Assembly: GCA_017466325.1 (NCBI GenBank)
Contig: JAFTUK010000037.1
Location: forward strand, 1-64,000
DNA from: Bacteroidaceae bacterium
GTDB lineage: Bacteria > Bacteroidota > Bacteroidia > Bacteroidales > Bacteroidaceae
Length of the DNA: 64,000 nt
Direction: 5' to 3'
Part shown: positions 210 through 8,131 of the stretch, one piece after another
How positions within the stretch are numbered: the first letter of the stretch is position 1
Layout: each line of letters opens with the position of its first letter
Notes under the pieces: model-generated
Database searches by the model: none
What the model was told of the DNA's origin: nothing
The model's input: only the letters and a program-made list of their open reading frames with translations
Position numbers and translations under genes: made by a program

Positions 210-270
210 CACCGTGTAAAATCTTAAAAAGGTGTAAAATATCGAGATTCAGAAATCGCAAAAAGGTGCG
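186..270 (+). repeat. Three direct repeats AAATCnnAAAAAGGTG in promoter and leader
   Basis: Copies lie at 186-203, 219-236 and 253-270, spaced 33 and 34 bp, about three helical turns. Copy 1 sits inside the promoter, copy 2 near the expected transcription start, and copy 3 ends 12 bp before the ATG at 283. The placement suggests an operator for autoregulation of the ATPase gene; that function is inference. Confidence 0.6.
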
Positions 271-282
271 GATGACATCATC

Positions 283-1632
283 ATGAAGCGTAAAATATAT
301 CAGCAACTCCTTGATTGGAAGGAGAAAAGAAACGGTGAAGTGGCACTACTCGTAGAGGGAGCACGACGTATCGGAAAGAGTTATATCGTAGAGGAATTCG
401 CCAAGAATGAGTATGAGTCATACATCCTCATTGACTTCAATAAGGCTCCCCAGATGGTAAGAGATTGGTTTGACCTCTATCTGGAAGACCTCGACACGTT
501 GTTCCTCTATCTGAGCCAACACTATAAGGTAAGGCTCCATGAGCGCAAGTCGCTTATTATCCTTGATGAGATACAGTTATGCCCCAGAGCGAGAGCAGCC
601 ATCAAGTTTCTGGTGGCCGACAGAAGATATGACTACATTGAGACGGGATCTTTGGTAAGTATCAAGAAAAACACACAAGGCATCGTGCTCCCATCGGAAG
701 AACGTTCTATTCAGATGTACCCTATGGACTTTGAAGAGTTTCTTTGGGCCACAGGTAATGATATGCTGATGGACTTGATACGTAAGATGTATGCAGAGAG
801 AAAACCGATGGGACAGGTTTTCCATCGTCAGGCAATGGATGCTTTCCGTCTCTATATGATAGTTGGAGGAATGCCGCAAGCCGTCAAAAAGTATGTTGAG
901 ACCAAAGACTTTGATGCCGTAGATGCTGCTAAACGTGATGTGCTGACAATCTATCGTAATGACATCTTCAATTATGCAGGTGAGATAGCAGACAAGGTGG
1001 TGTCTATCTTCGACCAGATTCCTCCCCAGCTCTCCAAACATGAAAAGAAGTTTCGGTTGTCAGCCCTGAGACCAGGTGCGAAATACCGCGATTGGGACGA
1101 TGCATTCTTCTGGCTGAAGGACGCGAGGGTTGTCAATATATGCTACAATTCGACAGAGCCGAACATCGGACTTAAGATGAATGAAGACCGTACGACATTG
1201 AAGTGTTATATGAACGATACAGGCTTGCTAATCAGTCATGCTTTCGATGAAAAGGGCATCGTCTCGTCTGAGATTTACCAGAAACTGCTCTTTGGAAAGC
1301 TGGAGGTGAACGAGGGAATGCTCATTGAGAATATCGTGGCTCAGATGCTGACAGCCAGCGGTAACAAACTCTTTTTCTACAGTAAGTCGTCAGAGGAAGC
1401 CGAGGAACGAATGGAAATAGACTTCTTGCTTCAAAAGGACAAAGTGACCAGTCGTCACAATATCCGTCCGATAGAAGTCAAAAGCGGCAAGAACTACACT
1501 TTATCTTCCCTAAAGAAGTGTATGAATAAGTTTGAAGAGTATATGACCACTCCTACCGTTTTGCATGCAGCTGACTATAAAGTAGAGGATGGTATCACCT
1601 ATCTTCCGCTTTACATGACACCTTTATTGTAA
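283..1632 (+). CDS. AAA ATPase with DUF4143 domain
   Basis: A 449-residue protein of the AAA_14/DUF4143 family. Residues 26-33 (GARRIGKS) are the P-loop and LIILDEIQ at 91-98 is Walker B. The C-terminal DUF4143 part carries an IDFLL...PIEVKSG pattern, a PD-(D/E)xK-like core often seen in this family. The family is common in Bacteroidetes and Archaea; its role is unsettled, with links to mobile DNA or defence suspected. The gene stands alone behind its own promoter and a set of direct repeats, 110 bp before an EcoRI-type methylase. The first ATG after the third repeat is the only sensible start. Function in the cell is not known; the domain call is firm. Confidence 0.9.
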   Translation: MKRKIYQQLLDWKEKRNGEVALLVEGARRIGKSYIVEEFAKNEYESYILIDFNKAPQMVRDWFDLYLEDLDTLFLYLSQHYKVRLHERKSLIILDEIQLCPRARAAIKFLVADRRYDYIETGSLVSIKKNTQGIVLPSEERSIQMYPMDFEEFLWATGNDMLMDLIRKMYAERKPMGQVFHRQAMDAFRLYMIVGGMPQAVKKYVETKDFDAVDAAKRDVLTIYRNDIFNYAGEIADKVVSIFDQIPPQLSKHEKKFRLSALRPGAKYRDWDDAFFWLKDARVVNICYNSTEPNIGLKMNEDRTTLKCYMNDTGLLISHAFDEKGIVSSEIYQKLLFGKLEVNEGMLIENIVAQMLTASGNKLFFYSKSSEEAEERMEIDFLLQKDKVTSRHNIRPIEVKSGKNYTLSSLKKCMNKFEEYMTTPTVLHAADYKVEDGITYLPLYMTPLL

Positions 1633-1701
1633 GTACAAGGACGAAGACAATACGTGTCATCTTCTTTGTACTGATTTCGCCTAATACTCAATAAAATTGT
1701 G

Positions 1702-1709
1702 TAAATTTG
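1702..1709 (+). promoter_or_regulatory. -7 element before the adenine methylase
   Basis: TAAATTTG, 33 bp before the methylase ATG at 1743, matches TAnnTTTG. No convincing TTTG element lies at the expected distance, only TTTCG at 1675-1679. Confidence 0.4.
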
Positions 1710-1742
1710 TAGCCAAAATTTGAAATCCTCAAGTAAACGAGT

Positions 1743-2852
1743 ATGGCAAATACGAACTTAGCAAATGCGAAGACGGCAAAGAACGACGAGTTCTATACGC
1801 AATATCCCGATATTCAGAAGGAGATAAACGCCTATCTGGACTATGACCCGAATGTATTTCGTGGCAAGACGGTGCTCCTGCCTTGCGACGACCCAGAGTG
1901 GAGTAACTTCACAAAGTTCTTTGCTCAGAACTTTGAACTATTGGGATTGAAGAAACTGATTTCCACCAGCTATGCACCCGAAAGCAAGAAGTACAAGATG
2001 CCATACCAACCGACATTCTTTGAAACTGAGCAACCGCATTTCAACGCAGACAAAAGTAAGACGCATGGAAAGATATTCGTACTTGAACGTGATGTAACGG
2101 GCGACAATCGTATCAACATCGAAGATTTGCAATGGCAATATCTGGAGGGTGACGGTGATTTCCGTAGCAAGGAGATACGCAAACTACGTGACGAGGCAGA
2201 CATCATTGTAACTAATCCGCCTTTCTCGCTGTTCCGTGAATTCGTGGCTTGGTTGGTGGAGGCTGGCAAGCAATTTATCATTATAGGCAACATGAATGCA
2301 GCGATGTACAAAGAAGTGTTTCCTTTAATTAAAGAAAATAAAATATGGCTTGGAAATGGTTTCCAAAGTGGCAATGCTTACTTCCGAATAGACGCTGTTC
2401 GCAACGAATATGCAGATGGTGTTTATGATGAAACGACAGGGCTTGTAAAGTTCCGTAATTGCTGTTGGTATACTAACATAGACCATGGGCGTCGACATCA
2501 ACCTTTACGGCTTATGACTATGGCTGATAATTTCAAGCATAGCAAACATAAAGAAATAAGAGGAAAGAAAGAGTATGAGCCTTATGTTAACTTTGAAGGA
2601 ATAGAAGTACCATATACGGATGCAATACCATGTGATTATAACGGTGCAATGGGTGTTCCAATCTCTTTCCTTGACAAGTATTGTCCAGATCAATTTGAAA
2701 TTCTTGGTATAGGACTGGAACTTGCAAACATGGATATTATCAAAGAAAAACTTGGCAAACTGAATGGAGGCCCTCGTTTATATGTAGAGCGTGATGGTGA
2801 ACTTGTCAGATTGTACGAAAGAATACTAATCCGTAAAAAGCAATCAGTATGA
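1743..2852 (+). CDS. EcoRI-type adenine-specific DNA methyltransferase
   Basis: A 369-residue protein resembling the M.EcoRI family (Adenine_MTase_EcoRI). It would transfer a methyl group from S-adenosylmethionine to N6 of adenine at a specific DNA site. NPPF at 158-161 is the catalytic motif of N6-adenine methylases, and PCDDPEWSNF near residues 47-56 matches the family's early motif. No EcoRI-like endonuclease gene follows. Instead the stop codon overlaps the ATG of a DUF262-HNH gene by 4 bp (2849-2852), so the two are translationally coupled and probably act as modification and cutting arms of one system. The AT-rich sequence compared with downstream genes suggests horizontal transfer. Confidence 0.88.
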   Translation: MANTNLANAKTAKNDEFYTQYPDIQKEINAYLDYDPNVFRGKTVLLPCDDPEWSNFTKFFAQNFELLGLKKLISTSYAPESKKYKMPYQPTFFETEQPHFNADKSKTHGKIFVLERDVTGDNRINIEDLQWQYLEGDGDFRSKEIRKLRDEADIIVTNPPFSLFREFVAWLVEAGKQFIIIGNMNAAMYKEVFPLIKENKIWLGNGFQSGNAYFRIDAVRNEYADGVYDETTGLVKFRNCCWYTNIDHGRRHQPLRLMTMADNFKHSKHKEIRGKKEYEPYVNFEGIEVPYTDAIPCDYNGAMGVPISFLDKYCPDQFEILGIGLELANMDIIKEKLGKLNGGPRLYVERDGELVRLYERILIRKKQSV

Positions 2853-4048
2853 AGACAGAATTGAAAATCTACACCGTTGAGCAGATTTGCGACGGCTTTG
2901 AGTATAACGAACTGGAAGGGAAAGGTCTCTATGGCTTGGCTGGTCAGTTGACTATTCAGCCAGAATATCAGCGTAACTACATTTATGCCGACGGCAAACG
3001 CGACGTTGCTGTGATTGAATCTGTGTTGAAAGGCTATCCGCTTGGGCTGATATACTTCAACCGCAACAAAGACTTCAAGACCCCTCAAACTGAATTGGAA
3101 GTTCTCGATGGTCAGCAACGCATCACTTCGCTTGGTCGTTTCATTAAGAACAAGTTTGCCGTTAAGATTAATGACTTGGAGCAAATCTTTGACGGTCTGA
3201 ATGAAGGCCAGCAACAGAAGATTCTGCAAACGAAGTTACTGGTCTATATCTGCGAAGGCGAGGGCGAACATGCCGAGGAAGAAATCAAAGAATGGTTTAA
3301 GACAATTAACATTGCTGGCATTCCGCTTAATCATCAAGAGGAATTGAACGCCGTGTTCAGTGGACCTTTCGTAACAAAGTGCAAGGAGGAATTCTCTAAT
3401 TCTGATGACAAGAGGATTCAGCGTTGGAGCAGTTACGTAAAAGGGCCTGCCAATCGTCAGCAGTTCTTAGCAACTGCCCTGGAATGGGTAAGCCGGAATA
3501 TGGACGCAAAGGATAAAGTAAGTGCCTATATGTCTGCCCATCGTCGTGACGAGGACATCAGCGACATAAAGACCTATTTCAACACCGTGATAGATTGGGT
3601 GGATAGCAAGTTTGATAATATCTATGACGAAATGCAAGGCTTGAACTGGGGCGAACTCTACGAGCGTTTCCATTCGCTGCCATTGAACCATACGGAACTG
3701 TCGCAAAAAGTGCGTGAGTTGATGCATGACGATTTTGTTGGGAATCGCCGAGGCGTGTTTGAGTATGTGCTTGGTGGTTGTCAAGATACAAAGCTATTGA
3801 ATGTCCGCTTGTTCGACAAACCAACCATGCGCAAAGTATATCAGCAACAAACCGATAAGGCAAAGGTGGAGGGCGTGAGCAACTGCCCCTACTGTGCCAT
3901 CGGCCATGACCAGAATGCCCGCCGCATCTGGAAACTGGAAGAAATGGATGCCGACCATGTAACCGCATGGAGCAAGGGAGGCTCAACAGATATTGAAAAC
4001 TGTCAAATGTTGTGCAAGACACATAATAGGGCAAAAGGGAATAGATAG
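2849..4048 (+). CDS. DUF262 and HNH endonuclease domain protein
   Basis: A 399-residue protein. The N-terminal DUF262 (GmrS/ParB-like) domain shows QPEYQRNY at 37-44 and DGQQR at 87-91, the family's nucleotide-handling motifs. The last 60 residues are an HNH nuclease with a CPYC zinc knuckle, DADHVTAWSKGG, then N and H (CKTHN). DUF262 plus HNH is the architecture of GmrSD type IV enzymes and of several other defence nucleases. Overlap with the upstream adenine methylase points to a two-gene restriction-modification-like unit in which NTP use and cutting lie in one protein. Whether it cuts unmethylated or modified DNA cannot be read from sequence. Confidence 0.85.
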   Translation: MKTELKIYTVEQICDGFEYNELEGKGLYGLAGQLTIQPEYQRNYIYADGKRDVAVIESVLKGYPLGLIYFNRNKDFKTPQTELEVLDGQQRITSLGRFIKNKFAVKINDLEQIFDGLNEGQQQKILQTKLLVYICEGEGEHAEEEIKEWFKTINIAGIPLNHQEELNAVFSGPFVTKCKEEFSNSDDKRIQRWSSYVKGPANRQQFLATALEWVSRNMDAKDKVSAYMSAHRRDEDISDIKTYFNTVIDWVDSKFDNIYDEMQGLNWGELYERFHSLPLNHTELSQKVRELMHDDFVGNRRGVFEYVLGGCQDTKLLNVRLFDKPTMRKVYQQQTDKAKVEGVSNCPYCAIGHDQNARRIWKLEEMDADHVTAWSKGGSTDIENCQMLCKTHNRAKGNR

Positions 4049-4050
4049 TT

Positions 4051-4701
4051 ATGAAAGAAAATTCTAATTCTAATAAAAGAGGGTTCTGGAAAAGTAATTG
4101 GCATTGGATGTTATTTATTCTATTTTGGCTGTTACTTTTTCCTTACATATTAAACAAACTAATTTTAATTGATAGATATTGGAATATTGTAGGTGGTCCA
4201 AAAGAATGGCTTGCTTTTTGGCCATCATATTTGAGTGCCCTTGCATCTGCTGTAATGATAGCATATACAGCAATGACATTGAAGAACAACAAAGAACAAT
4301 TAGATGAACTGAAACGTCAATGGGATGAAGACCACACACCTAGTGTTTCTGTTTCATTTAATTTTATACCGCCTTTTGCTTATCTTAGATTTGAGAATAC
4401 TTCTGTCGTTGAAGTGGAAGATTTAAGTATGAAAATTGAATTTTACAAAGGAGACACAATAGTAGAAGGCTTTATACCCAAAGATAGGCAAAAAGTAATA
4501 GATAACCTTAAAATAAATATTGAGCCAAAAGGAATAAGAAACCTTGTAATACGAAATAATCTTGGAGGTCTATATAACGATGAATCAATTCTTCTTTATT
4601 TAAAATATAATGGAAAAGAAAAGAAGCCGATAAGGATTCTTTGTAACGATATGTTTACTATTGGTGACAACTCTATGTGGTACATCATGCAAAAACGTTG
4701 A
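4051..4701 (+). CDS. Small membrane protein of the defence-like island
   Basis: A 216-residue protein I do not recognise. Two hydrophobic segments (about residues 17-36 and 52-75) flank a short loop, followed by a short charged region and a soluble C-terminal domain of about 120 residues rich in beta-strand patterns. It starts 2 bp after the DUF262-HNH stop, so it is part of the same transcript. The DNA is markedly AT-rich. Membrane-anchored partners are common in antiphage operons, but a role here is inference only. Confidence 0.75.
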   Translation: MKENSNSNKRGFWKSNWHWMLFILFWLLLFPYILNKLILIDRYWNIVGGPKEWLAFWPSYLSALASAVMIAYTAMTLKNNKEQLDELKRQWDEDHTPSVSVSFNFIPPFAYLRFENTSVVEVEDLSMKIEFYKGDTIVEGFIPKDRQKVIDNLKINIEPKGIRNLVIRNNLGGLYNDESILLYLKYNGKEKKPIRILCNDMFTIGDNSMWYIMQKR

Positions 4702-4708
4702 TAATGAT

Positions 4709-5026
4709 ATGGGGGACATCTACTATAAGTTAGACAGAAATACAAGGGCGGATTTAATAGCAACAGTTAGACGTGCTGCAATTGAGATATTGGAAGGCCC
4801 ACAGGAAACTTGGATAACCGCAGACGAGGTTTCCAAAATGTTTCCTTTCTTTAATAAGGAATGGATGAAGAAGTATAGTTATCTGCTTCCACGTAAGCGT
4901 GTTGAGGTCATGGATAAAAATGGCATAACAACAAGAAGTCGTTGGTACTATTCGCGTAACAGGATTCTCCGAATGGTAAGAGAAAATGACATCCTTCGAT
5001 TTGACGATATAATAGACAGAGACTGA
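4709..5026 (+). CDS. Small basic protein, paralogue 1, possible DNA binder
   Basis: A 105-residue protein. An upstream in-frame start at 4661 lies inside the previous gene; the ATG at 4709, just after that gene's stop, is preferred. The core WITADEVSKMFPFFNKEW followed by a basic stretch (PRKRVEV) and a tail WYYSRNRILRMV looks like a helix-turn-helix with a basic wing, as in excisionase-like proteins, but I cannot name a family. It is clearly related to the next gene: PFF[NK]KxW[ML]K, a basic turn, an aromatic pair and a basic helix are shared. Its TGA overlaps the next ATG by 1 bp. Probably a DNA- or protein-binding partner of the island. Confidence 0.7.
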   Translation: MGDIYYKLDRNTRADLIATVRRAAIEILEGPQETWITADEVSKMFPFFNKEWMKKYSYLLPRKRVEVMDKNGITTRSRWYYSRNRILRMVRENDILRFDDIIDRD

Positions 5027-5295
5027 TGGGCTGGGACGGTTATCTAAAGAATGAAATAGTTCGCGCTATACGCAAGGAGTTGGAACGCTCGGATGAAATG
5101 GCTGATGAAGTTTGGCTAACAGAAAAGCAGTTAGTGGAAGAAATGCCGTTCTTCAAAAAGTCATGGCTGAAGGATAATGGTTACAAACTTCATCCGAGAT
5201 ATGCTTGGGTAACTGACAAGAAAGGCGAATATCATTATTCAAAGAAATACTATCCAAAGAATGCAATCCTAAAACAACTGCGTGAAGAAAAATAG
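5026..5295 (+). CDS. Small basic protein, paralogue 2, possible DNA binder
   Basis: An 89-residue protein with the same plan as its upstream neighbour: an N-terminal helix, VWLTEKQLVEEMPFFKKSW, a basic turn, then KKYYPKNAILKQLRE. The pair arose by tandem duplication and has diverged strongly. It starts on the last base of the neighbour's stop codon, so the two are coupled. No further gene follows before a repeat-rich gap, so this ends the island. No catalytic motif is visible; two similar subunits could form a heterodimer that binds an asymmetric site, which is speculation. Confidence 0.7.
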   Translation: MGWDGYLKNEIVRAIRKELERSDEMADEVWLTEKQLVEEMPFFKKSWLKDNGYKLHPRYAWVTDKKGEYHYSKKYYPKNAILKQLREEK

Positions 5296-5488
5296 CCGAT
5301 GAAGAATTGATATGGGCTACCTACAAATACAGATTGAAAGGCGGGGAACCTTCCCCATTGGGACTGGCTAAGTCTTTGCAAAGATACGGAAAAAATTTAT
5401 GATGTTAATGGATTTTAACAAAAAAGAGATTATATGCTCGGTTTGAGACCGGTTAAGCTTCATATGCCATCACTTTTACCCCCATTCT

Positions 5489-5500
5489 ATTATCGATAAT
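5489..5500. repeat. 12-bp palindrome ATTATCGATAAT
   Basis: A perfect palindrome in the long gap 5296-5719 between converging genes. The first 250 bp of this gap otherwise hold only an orphan CAAAGATA (5379-5386, a promoter-like element on the minus strand with no gene to serve) and a GGGGA/TCCCC mini-hairpin at 5343-5356. Confidence 0.35.
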
Positions 5501-5552
5501 GGCAAGTTTTATCCCATATCATTATACTGTTACTCCGATATGGTGTCGAGAA

Positions 5553-5616
5553 AGTGTTGATACGACAACACTCGAGTGTTGACGCTACAACAGAGCAGTG
5601 TTGTCGGGGCAACACT
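5553..5616. repeat. Three hairpins with 22-bp period (element A)
   Basis: Units start at 5553, 5575 and 5597. Each is AGTGTTG, six free bases, then CAACACT (the middle unit ends CAACAGA), with 2-nt linkers, so the period is exactly 22 bp. Each unit can fold alone; between units 1 and 2 the arms also form a 16-bp palindrome (5566-5581). The cluster lies in the gap between converging genes. The same 7-6-7-2 design with other arm sequences recurs at 23439 and, in a slightly shifted form, at 42112. Confidence 0.75.
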
Positions 5617-5638
5617 GATTAATATATATCATCATAAC

Positions 5639-5660
5639 GCTAATGAACCGATTGGAGCAA
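5639..5660 (+). repeat. Copy of dispersed AATGACC-ATTTGG motif
   Basis: Reads GCTAATGAACCGATTGGAG, a degenerate copy of the intergenic motif also found at 13601, 23576, 27577, 30699, 46201, 46232 and 61633. It sits directly before a strong hairpin whose loop region (CCGATTGG) echoes the motif core. Confidence 0.5.
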
Positions 5661-5696
5661 ATCATGGGGCAATGCCGATTGGCATTGCCCCATGAT
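5661..5696. terminator. Strong hairpin, probable terminator at a convergent gene end
   Basis: A perfect 16-bp stem (5661-5676 with 5681-5696) and a 4-nt loop, 24 bp beyond the stop of the minus-strand secreted-protein gene. No clear T-run follows on either strand, so it may work as a 3' end stabiliser as much as an intrinsic terminator. Confidence 0.65.
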
Positions 5697-5719
5697 AATA
5701 TCATTATAAAAGGATGAAG

Positions 5720-8131
5720 TTAATTGCGTACGACCTTTTTTCTGCCATTTACGATGACTATGCCTTCCTTGGGCAGTGCATGAAGTTTCTGTCCCTGCAT
5801 GTTGTAGATGCCCTGCTGGAGAGTGGCAGCGTCCCCAGTGGTAATGTCCTGGATGGAGGTTACCAGGTCTGTAACCTCCACGTTGGGATTCTCTATGATG
5901 TACATTACTGAACCGTGGTCGTTCCATGTCCAGTTGCGAACGGCACATGAAGCCTCGTTGGTAACAATACAGGCAAAGTTTTTTGAAGCGTCGGAATAGT
6001 CTCCGCCGGCATGGAAACTGAATGTACCGTCGCCGTTGTCGCGAATATTGTCCAGTGCGGTCTTGTTGACAGTGAACTTATAATCGCGGCCTTCACGTGT
6101 CACATAGGACTGGTTCGCCGGCTGATAGAGGTAGTAGGCATCCTCCTCTTTCAGAATCTGCCAGACGACGGTTGAATCAAAAGGGCTGACTTCCTGTTGG
6201 TAAATAGCGGCAACAGTCTGATTGCTGGTCAAATTGTTATAACTGTAATTTGTCACACCACGCAGACTTACATAGGTGTTGGTTATGGTAGGGTTCCATG
6301 CCAAGTAGCCCTCGCCGCTCTTGGCCTTGATGTGGTAGGCCATGTCGTTGCGCAGTTCGGAAAGGCTGCTTATGTTCCTGTATGCCTGAATGGCCTTGTA
6401 GGTAACGGTGAGTACCTTGGTGGCGGCATCCAGAGAAGCGGAACAGATGTATCCTTCGATCTGAATGGGGGTAACGTCGTCGGCAGAGAAATACTGCGAT
6501 GCGTCTATGATGTCCTCATGTCCGTACTCCTTGCCAAGGAAGTTAACGCCGCCCTGCCCCTCGGGAGCGCCTACCACGTTGACCGTGTAGTGCTGAACCT
6601 GCTGCATGTCGCCCTTGATGCTCACGTATCCGCCACGGATGTACTCGGCAGGGATGGTGTAAGTGCTGTCCTGGGCAGAGATGGCAGTTACGGGCACGTC
6701 AACGAGAATCCAGTTGGGGTTGCCGTTCTCGTCCAGTTGGTCCACCGCATTCACGTTGTAACCGTACTTCAGTTGGAAGCCGTTCTGCACGAAGCCCTTT
6801 TCGGGAATGACCTTCACCTTGAGCGCCTTGCCGTATTCGGCCTGATAGGCCTGCAAGGGAGAGAGGTCTTCGGCCAGCACGATGTCGCCGTTCAACTGTG
6901 AAGCGCTTACGCTGACCATATCGCCATGCACGTCCAGGGTGAGATCAACGTAGCCGCCGCCGTCGGAGATGATTGTAGGACCGCCGGCAGGGTTGAGGTT
7001 GTCCCAATCCACCTTGTAGCGCATGCGGTAGAAGCCGTTGGCGGTGGAGGCAGGAACGGTGAATGTGGGCATTGCACTTCCTATGGTGTTGCCGTTGGCC
7101 GAGGTGCTGCCGTCGCTCTTGCGCCATGTACCGTTGACCTGTGCGGCACTGTAGGAGACGATGTCGCTGCCCGCGGCAGGTGTGCCGTTGTCGTTCACTT
7201 CGTAGGAGAAGACGCCGTCGTTGCCCCAGTCGGCATAGACGTATCCGCTCATCCAGGTGCCACTGTACTTGAAGGTGGGCTGTACCTGTTCGCCTGCCTT
7301 GGCCGAGAATACGTTGGTACACATCATATCGGTGTAGACGAGTTTACCTGCACCCATGGCGGTCTGCTCAGTGGCACCAACCTTGAAACCGACACCGTTC
7401 AGACGGCGGTCGTTGCGTGTGGGCTTTGCCTCGGGGTCAATGCTAAGCGCATACTTGTCTGTACTGAAACGCTTGTCGGGATTGTTGTCCACCACTATTT
7501 CGTCGAAGTAAGCCACCCAGTCGCTTTGGTCAGCATGGGGTGAACGGAGGTCGGGGATGATGACAAGAGCATGGATGTCGATACCGCTATTCTCATTCTC
7601 TTCCTTAGAATATGAGAAACCCTTGAAACTTACGACAACGTCCTGCCAGCCTTCCTTGGCCTTGACGGGAGCATTGGTCCAGGCCCAGAACTGCTCGTCC
7701 TCGCCTGTCTGCCATTCCCAACTCTTTTCCAGACGCTTGCCCAGACCTATCACCATCATACGGGAGTCGGCGGGCTTGTCCTTCAGGTATGCCATCACGT
7801 GGATGTACTGCAACTGCTTGGTCATGCGGATGGGTTCCTTCAGGTCTATCCTCACACCATAGGCATTGCCTGCGAAGCGGCTTCTCTGGAATGCCACCAC
7901 CTTGGCAGAGGAGTTGGGTGCTGCACCCAGTACCTCGTCAACTTTTGTATCGGGGTTGTCGGCCACACCTGCATTGCCTGCCAGCGTGCCAACACGGAAA
8001 GGACTCTTTTCCCATTGGTCGTAAACGCCAATCTTTGCATAGTCCTCGGCATCAAAACTGATTGTTGTCTGTGCCTTGGCAGCCAAGCCTGCTATCAGCA
8101 AGGCTGCGGGGAGTATATATTTCTTTATCAT
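5720..8131 (-). CDS. Secreted protein with Por/T9SS-like C-terminal tail
   Basis: An 803-residue protein. Residues 1-20 form a signal peptide ending AKA-Q. The first part (about 25-215) has a jelly-roll look (DYAKIGVYDQW, YFDEIVVD), suggesting a carbohydrate-binding-like module; the middle has beta-rich Ig-like segments with WNPT and DWDNLNPAGG motifs. The last 40 residues (GIYNMQGQKL...VNGRKKVV) match the Prevotella form of the type IX secretion/sorting tail. It lies 10 bp downstream of a GH29 fucosidase and must share its transcript, so it probably acts on or binds the same fucosylated glycans. No catalytic domain is recognised. Confidence 0.85.
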   Translation of the reverse strand: MIKKYILPAALLIAGLAAKAQTTISFDAEDYAKIGVYDQWEKSPFRVGTLAGNAGVADNPDTKVDEVLGAAPNSSAKVVAFQRSRFAGNAYGVRIDLKEPIRMTKQLQYIHVMAYLKDKPADSRMMVIGLGKRLEKSWEWQTGEDEQFWAWTNAPVKAKEGWQDVVVSFKGFSYSKEENENSGIDIHALVIIPDLRSPHADQSDWVAYFDEIVVDNNPDKRFSTDKYALSIDPEAKPTRNDRRLNGVGFKVGATEQTAMGAGKLVYTDMMCTNVFSAKAGEQVQPTFKYSGTWMSGYVYADWGNDGVFSYEVNDNGTPAAGSDIVSYSAAQVNGTWRKSDGSTSANGNTIGSAMPTFTVPASTANGFYRMRYKVDWDNLNPAGGPTIISDGGGYVDLTLDVHGDMVSVSASQLNGDIVLAEDLSPLQAYQAEYGKALKVKVIPEKGFVQNGFQLKYGYNVNAVDQLDENGNPNWILVDVPVTAISAQDSTYTIPAEYIRGGYVSIKGDMQQVQHYTVNVVGAPEGQGGVNFLGKEYGHEDIIDASQYFSADDVTPIQIEGYICSASLDAATKVLTVTYKAIQAYRNISSLSELRNDMAYHIKAKSGEGYLAWNPTITNTYVSLRGVTNYSYNNLTSNQTVAAIYQQEVSPFDSTVVWQILKEEDAYYLYQPANQSYVTREGRDYKFTVNKTALDNIRDNGDGTFSFHAGGDYSDASKNFACIVTNEASCAVRNWTWNDHGSVMYIIENPNVEVTDLVTSIQDITTGDAATLQQGIYNMQGQKLHALPKEGIVIVNGRKKVVRN

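Follow-up and report, generated by a model that had tools for sequence, protein, structure and literature searches.

The window analysed here (64,000 nucleotides, positions 1 to 64,000 of contig JAFTUK010000037.1 of a Bacteroidaceae bacterium) carries at 283-5295 a compact island of six open reading frames (ORFs) on the plus strand, in which an M.EcoRI-family methylase is followed by a DUF262-HNH nuclease, the pair with which this analysis is mainly concerned, and then by a membrane protein and two small proteins (Table 1). The ORFs and their tight junctions lie as a preliminary description of this DNA had placed them: methylase and nuclease overlap by 4 bases, and the later junctions are gaps of 2 and 7 bases and an overlap of 1 base. 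That description had taken the five genes from the methylase on as a restriction-modification or abortive-infection system with extra components; the restriction-modification part of this claim stands and the five-gene system does not, as the conserved core consists of two genes, the M.EcoRI-family methylase and the DUF262-HNH nuclease. The window opens at the first base of its contig (the assembly, hereafter G000, comprises 2.59 Mb in 56 contigs), and the region to the left of the island is therefore unseen. Rfam and tRNA scans of the window gave no matches.

Table 1. Features of the island in window coordinates, with proposed roles and their basis
Feature	Position	Strand	Basis or remark
AAA_14 + DUF4143 ATPase, PADLOC candidate PDC-S01	283..1632	+	neighbour outside the conserved core
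M.EcoRI-family adenine methylase, proposed specificity subunit	1743..2852	+	PF13651 E 2.8e-126; PADLOC MTase_II E 3e-87; NPPF motif kept
Methylase central segment, residues 205-241, swappable	2355..2465	+	sequence comparison of methylases
Methylase C-terminal cassette, residues 322-357, swappable	2706..2813	+	DNA likeness to L081 lost at ~2711-2848
DUF262-HNH nuclease, proposed constant methylase-guided cutter	2849..4048	+	PF03235, PF01844, PADLOC REase_II
Membrane protein of no known family, putative defence cargo	4051..4701	+	homologues in or beside restriction or defence operons
Small protein 1, probable mobile-element type	4709..5026	+	homologues near primase/integrase genes in L105, L107; start taken at ATG (ORF-list start is TTG at 4661)
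Small protein 2, paralogue of small protein 1	5026..5295	+	31% over 84 residues

The methylase-nuclease pair and its conservation

The assignment of the methylase to the M.EcoRI family is confirmed by the Pfam EcoRI_methylase profile, which spans residues 5-366, and a sequence search for solved structures of this family gave no match at E 0.01. The nuclease joins GmrSD_N (DUF262) at residues 36-170 (E 1.6e-19) to HNH at residues 346-399 (E 1.8e-9), retains the DGQQR, DH, N, N and C residues, with DGQQR (D87-R91) invariant across 57 aligned sequences, and matches the PADLOC REase_II profile over residues 18-398 (E 1e-79). PADLOC profiles thus class both proteins as type II enzymes; the pairing itself is therefore not new, and the earlier statement that the system had not been described holds only in part. 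The preliminary description had noted no EcoRI-like nuclease in this DNA, and EcoRI-type nucleases have no match in G000, an assembly 88% complete. G000 holds a second, diverged pair, whose methylase is 50% and whose nuclease is 35-38% identical to the window's. This pair (L006, G000:C7:48000-60000, at 3152-6195) is followed by a gene matching PADLOC PDC-S14, and its methylase has the same kind of C-terminal cassette as the window's and a different central kind.

Methylase loci were drawn from 150 relatives, 41 of them with a match, and from 80 loci of named genomes of several phyla. A DUF262-HNH gene lies downstream on the same strand in 115 of the 128 other methylase loci (three record duplicates across two collections, L081/L116, L090/L137 and L097/L148, are included). 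Independent occurrence of the two genes with other partners in most genomes, which the preliminary description had named as a refutation, is thus not what the loci show. The remaining 13 loci comprise nine that reach a contig end no more than 16 bases from the methylase, two with an EcoRI nuclease and two with neither nuclease (L117, L170). Within the genus, a methylase adjoins all 59 full-length nuclease matches and 60 of the 67 matches overall, the seven without one being all of partial length. Conversely, the nuclease stands beside 61 of 68 methylase rows, and the other seven are three at contig ends, two short fragments and two of full length (G173, G192). The five genes together are found in none of the 128 other loci within the DNA examined, and on this census, as well as by a refuting condition set in the preliminary description, the five-gene unit was rejected. 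The extra genes are not constant partners either, as a homologue of the membrane protein and a partial homologue of a small protein occur at one locus each (L069 and L075, 1/128 in both cases). When the window is compared with its nearest relatives, L081 and L084, DNA similarity is limited to the pair and stops at the stop codon of the nuclease gene.

More than 180 bases separate methylase and nuclease in 16 of the 115 paired loci, with inserts that include DUF1016 with Fic, an AAA ATPase with a DUF4276 protein, Bro-N and the membrane-protein homologue of L069. Genes matching PADLOC PDC candidates also lie inside the pair, namely PDC-S02 and PDC-S04 in L081 (the same record as L116), PDC-M31 in L075, PDC-S13 in L092, PDC-S05 in L121 and PDC-S02 in L124. 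Defence genes embedded in this manner are termed cases of "guilt-by-embedding" in two papers (PMC12988326, PMC12255303). In the window itself, the putative defence cargo sits after the pair and not within it.

The pair is found in records named Bacteroidota, Verrucomicrobia, Clostridia, Alpha- and Gammaproteobacteria, Actinobacteria, Anaerolineales, Spirochaetaceae and Saccharibacteria. It is also complete in Flavobacterium phage vB_FspS_laban6-1 (L206, 2959-5321), and on a Macrococcoides canis plasmid (L200, 3001-7038) it lies ~1 kb upstream of the annotated macrolide efflux gene mef(F). At four loci, L072 (8299-9819), L074, L087 and L097, the pair is adjoined by a DUF4268/DUF4357 protein with weak restriction-nuclease matches.

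Swappable methylase segments and the partner nuclease

As judged from sequence comparison, exchange of the methylase segments at residues 205-241 and 322-357 is coupled neither between the two nor to the nuclease. The C-terminal analysis was performed on 101 non-redundant methylase-nuclease pairs (105 before identical pairs were removed) and omits 14 ORFs with no readable anchor or end, seven of which are contig-end cases; the central segment was typed by alignment, as a text pattern missed most sequences, and L121 and L124, which have tandem cassettes, were left out of the analyses of 99 pairs and of 109 methylases. Identity of the methylase body follows that of the nuclease (Spearman 0.70 in the 101 pairs, 0.75 in the 99), whereas identity of the C-terminal cassette and of the central segment does not (0.07 and 0.02, respectively). 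Among the 36 pairs whose nucleases reach 90% identity or more, the C-terminal type is common to six, the central type to 13 and both types to five. Moreover, no 15-residue nuclease window tracks either cassette, the top partial correlations being 0.24 and 0.14. The 109 methylases display 19 central types and 35 C-terminal types in 76 combinations, and the pairs that share both types (34) match the expectation (33.0). At one locus (L134, 5857-9291), a single nuclease gene is preceded by two methylases in tandem that differ in their cassettes. Doubled cassettes are also seen within one methylase reading frame, with two tandem C-terminal copies in L121 (7001-8461) and L124 (2291-3763), whereas in L192 (8032-8320), named Saccharibacteria, a second C-terminal cassette follows immediately after the methylase.

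Methylases of this family have R.EcoRI as their partner in L080, L098 and plasmid loci, and DUF262-HNH at other loci. This bears out the earlier view that the latter nuclease occupies the place of EcoRI, and the EcoRI loci offer a natural control. Nine complete EcoRI-paired methylases are available, from E. coli and Klebsiella plasmids, Staphylococcus, Leuconostoc, Rhodococcus and three genomes of the window's phylum, and all nine share a single central kind and a single C-terminal kind (FRKGxDxKDL). The C-terminal cassette is thus common to 36 of their 36 pairs at body identities of 54-85%, whereas among DUF262-HNH-paired methylases the pairs with the same C-terminal cassette number 56 of 1130 at body identities of 50-60%, 84 of 2083 at 60-70%, 46 of 343 at 70-80%, 18 of 55 at 80-90% and 9 of 10 above 90%. 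In this evolutionary comparison, a fixed-target nuclease (EcoRI) freezes both methylase segments and the DUF262-HNH nuclease does not. L098 is excluded from these counts because its methylase gene is split: at 5282-7650, the EcoRI-adjoining methylase lies in two pieces that are separated by ~1.4 kb and enclose a 400-residue ORF, and the C-terminal piece has the FRKG cassette. EcoRI-like nucleases adjoin other methylases in L210 (Acinetobacter) and L213 (Paracoccus), which are not counted. Among the DUF262-HNH-paired methylases, L067 has both EcoRI-type segments, and L073, L086 and L167 have the EcoRI-type C-terminal cassette with other central kinds.

In some relatives, cassettes are probably exchanged through inversion arrays. 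L092, L155, L175, L228 and L245 carry two to four cassettes around a FEILG-coding repeat, one nuclease gene and then a tyrosine recombinase, and thereby display the features of a shufflon (inverted repeats, spare cassettes, recombinase). Specifically, the methylase of L155 (Bacteroides neonati) is followed by two more cassettes in inverted orientation, the nuclease gene and the recombinase; the four cassettes of L175 (Alloprevotella) include a silent one of the EcoRI kind; and L092, L228 and L245 have two to three each. The repeat, TTTGAAATCTTAGGG, occurs four times in L175 against 0.04 expected. A 392-base segment, 80% identical between L228 and L245, is inverted in one relative to the other while both ends stay collinear, and the cassette kind expressed in the one is silent in the other, and vice versa. 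Furthermore, of eight methylase ORFs truncated by a contig end on their 3' side, seven stop no more than six profile positions from the FEILG repeat, L229 starts inside this repeat and L244 starts 58 bases before it, a pattern to be expected where invertible segments interrupt the assembly or co-resident strains differ in their cassettes. Such an array was not found around the island: the window has no FEILG-type repeat at one mismatch, and G000 has no spare C-terminal segment (only two copies, one per methylase) and no match to such a recombinase at E 1e-60; the cassette system of the window looks fixed. None of the recombinases 44-51% identical to that of L155 adjoins the pair in the 10 regions examined, and L251 has a recombinase with no FEILG-type repeat found.

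Proposed mode of target recognition and its alternatives

As the nuclease shows no variable part that matches the cassettes, its target is probably taken from the methylase, and the methylase is rather probably the specificity subunit of the pair, which would direct the DUF262-HNH protein, a generic cutter, in the manner of type I and type III systems. In detail, the M.EcoRI-family methylase would be the sole target-reading subunit of a compact two-gene restriction-modification system, and its two cassettes, the first bordering the catalytic fold and the second C-terminal, would each read part of the site. The DUF262-HNH protein, with no target-reading part of its own in this model, would cut or nick where the methylase engages an unmethylated site, and its DUF262 domain would use nucleotide, as expected from the family (GmrSD, BrxU, SspE). 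A cassette swap, in some relatives through inversion, would change protection and attack at once, so that one constant nuclease could serve many targets; the contact between cassette and DNA, the recruitment of the nuclease by the methylase and the cutting chemistry are steps that we infer. The further reading that the pair forms a restriction type of its own, in which a single-chain methylase directs a target-blind GmrSD-like nuclease through two half-site readers that can each be exchanged without the other, seems evenly balanced. It would imply a combinatorial and, in some hosts, phase-variable restriction through the exchange of segments of ~18-65 residues, and under it the C-terminal FRKG cassette should read part of GAATTC, the L067 methylase should protect GAATTC with no EcoRI adjoining, and the sites of L073, L086 and L167 should coincide with GAATTC only in part.

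An orthodox type II system, in which the DUF262-HNH protein reads the same site itself and a few nuclease changes match each cassette change, would accord with the PADLOC classification, with the coevolution of body and nuclease and with a correlation that rises weakly towards the end of the HNH domain. It is nonetheless unlikely, since nucleases 90-97% identical adjoin methylases that differ in both cassette kinds, the two cassette sets of L134 share a single nuclease, the inversion arrays alter the cassette and leave the nuclease gene unchanged, and the true type II partner, R.EcoRI, freezes both cassettes. The separate, adjoining methylase and restriction genes of the window resemble those of orthodox type II systems; by this evolutionary test, however, no nuclease segment follows the methylase cassettes, which argues against a specificity of the nuclease's own. 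It is comparably improbable that the nuclease is an unguided, type IV-like sensor of foreign modification, as GmrSD and BrxU are, with a methylase that serves another role, such as epigenetic switching or protection, because a stand-alone sensor would need no partner, whereas the full-length nuclease matches of the genus invariably have one, and because R.EcoRI can replace the nuclease. A five-gene restriction or abortive-infection system that requires the membrane and small proteins would suit the single strand and tight spacing of the island and the membrane-protein homologue between the two core genes of L069, but the absence of the five-gene set from the other loci and the end of DNA similarity at the nuclease stop codon make it very improbable.

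Several points weigh against guidance by the methylase. Of the 82 loci in viral contigs, 32 carry a methylase with no DUF262-HNH nuclease nearby, and the methylase can therefore work alone; these loci, some of which duplicate one another, are taken as phage orphan methylases. The replicate of the correlation analysis on viral contigs (28 pairs) is weaker, with values of 0.27 between cassette and nuclease, 0.28 between body and cassette and 0.76 between body and nuclease. The highest window values (0.20-0.23) fall at the last windows of the HNH domain, a nuclease stretch at residues 193-204 is moderately conserved (mean identity 0.49) with a lowish coupling of 0.37, and the nuclease could read DNA through a few residues that escape a 15-residue window. 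Lastly, sequence pairs are non-independent observations, and the complete EcoRI-partnered methylases are few (nine) and partly related.

Swapped recognition regions are known in type I and type III systems, and in the hsdS shufflons of type I target-reading segments are inverted between short repeats with a recombinase near, a layout that the inversion-switched cassettes of the relatives resemble. Programmed inversions in type II systems have reportedly been treated by Milman, Yelin and Kishony in 2023. The EcoRI system shares the methylase family, and its E. coli plasmid methylase (L196) has both cassette positions, but its nuclease is unrelated and its cassettes are fixed, in contrast to those free with DUF262-HNH. 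Similar in logic are the type III modA alleles of Neisseria and Haemophilus, for which one paper describes a Mod with conserved flanks and a swapped recognition region and a constant Res that needs Mod (PMC3311624). The swapped region between conserved methylase flanks and the constant nuclease recur here as a sequence pattern; however, the window matches EcoRI_methylase, GmrSD_N and HNH, with no Res-like helicase or type III Mod, and its family has two cassettes, one of them C-terminal, and inversion arrays in place of repeat-tract switching. GmrSD, BrxU and SspE combine a DUF262 bearing the DGQQR motif with a following His-metal nuclease, according to two papers (PMC4619093, PMC12707154); the window nuclease likewise has DUF262 with DGQQR, but PF01844 HNH replaces DUF1524 and an adenine methylase is the constant partner. 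In LlaJI, a nuclease of a modification-dependent family works with methylases on an unmodified site (PMC12707154), the kind of pairing proposed for the window; its proteins are McrBC relatives, and its restriction side has a B3 DNA-binding domain of its own.

No papers on the methylase/DUF262-HNH pairing or its cassette switching are among the literature matches listed. As far as the literature was searched, the two independent cassettes of the M.EcoRI family, locked with EcoRI and free with DUF262-HNH, are new, as is the resulting case for a methylase-guided GmrSD-like nuclease. If this case holds, a widespread pair now filed as type II would move to a methylase-guided logic, the GmrSD nuclease fold would gain a new working mode, and a change of target with no cutting of self DNA would be explained. 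Furthermore, a small modular target-site code could be read from the cassettes, with the EcoRI-locked ones as its first entry (GAATTC).

Flanking and cargo genes

The AAA_14 + DUF4143 gene is separated from the methylase by a gap of 110 bases and is an inconstant neighbour among the relatives, and on both grounds it was rejected as a part of the system. The leader ahead of it, at window 214-294, has repeated AAAAAGGTG, and similar DNA (77-79%) occurs at G000:C19:30560-30640 and in L061.

For the membrane protein, profile searches, Pfam and PADLOC included, gave no family above cut-off, and its two spans are a reading of the sequence, not a tool prediction. Five homologues occur in the other 138 genus genomes: beside the one inserted in L069, that of L114 shares 4 bases with an overlapping type III methylase gene, that of L112 follows a type IIG-like enzyme and a Snf2-type helicase, and that of L113 is flanked by a PbeC/LmuB-like ATPase and a DUF1016 gene, and no restriction or defence neighbour was recognised beside that of L115. 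From these neighbourhoods, the protein is best read as swappable defence cargo that may act at the membrane as a backup effector.

The two small proteins are paralogous (E ~6e-12), as described before, and have homologues in eight other genus genomes. In the two regions tested, primase-like (L105) and integrase-like (L107) genes lie near the homologues, other regions being similar by eye, and the small proteins therefore probably originate from a mobile element. The partial homologue of L075 (80% over 49 residues) lies downstream of the pair, and in L106 (5896-6919) the small-protein family is present in three tandem copies.
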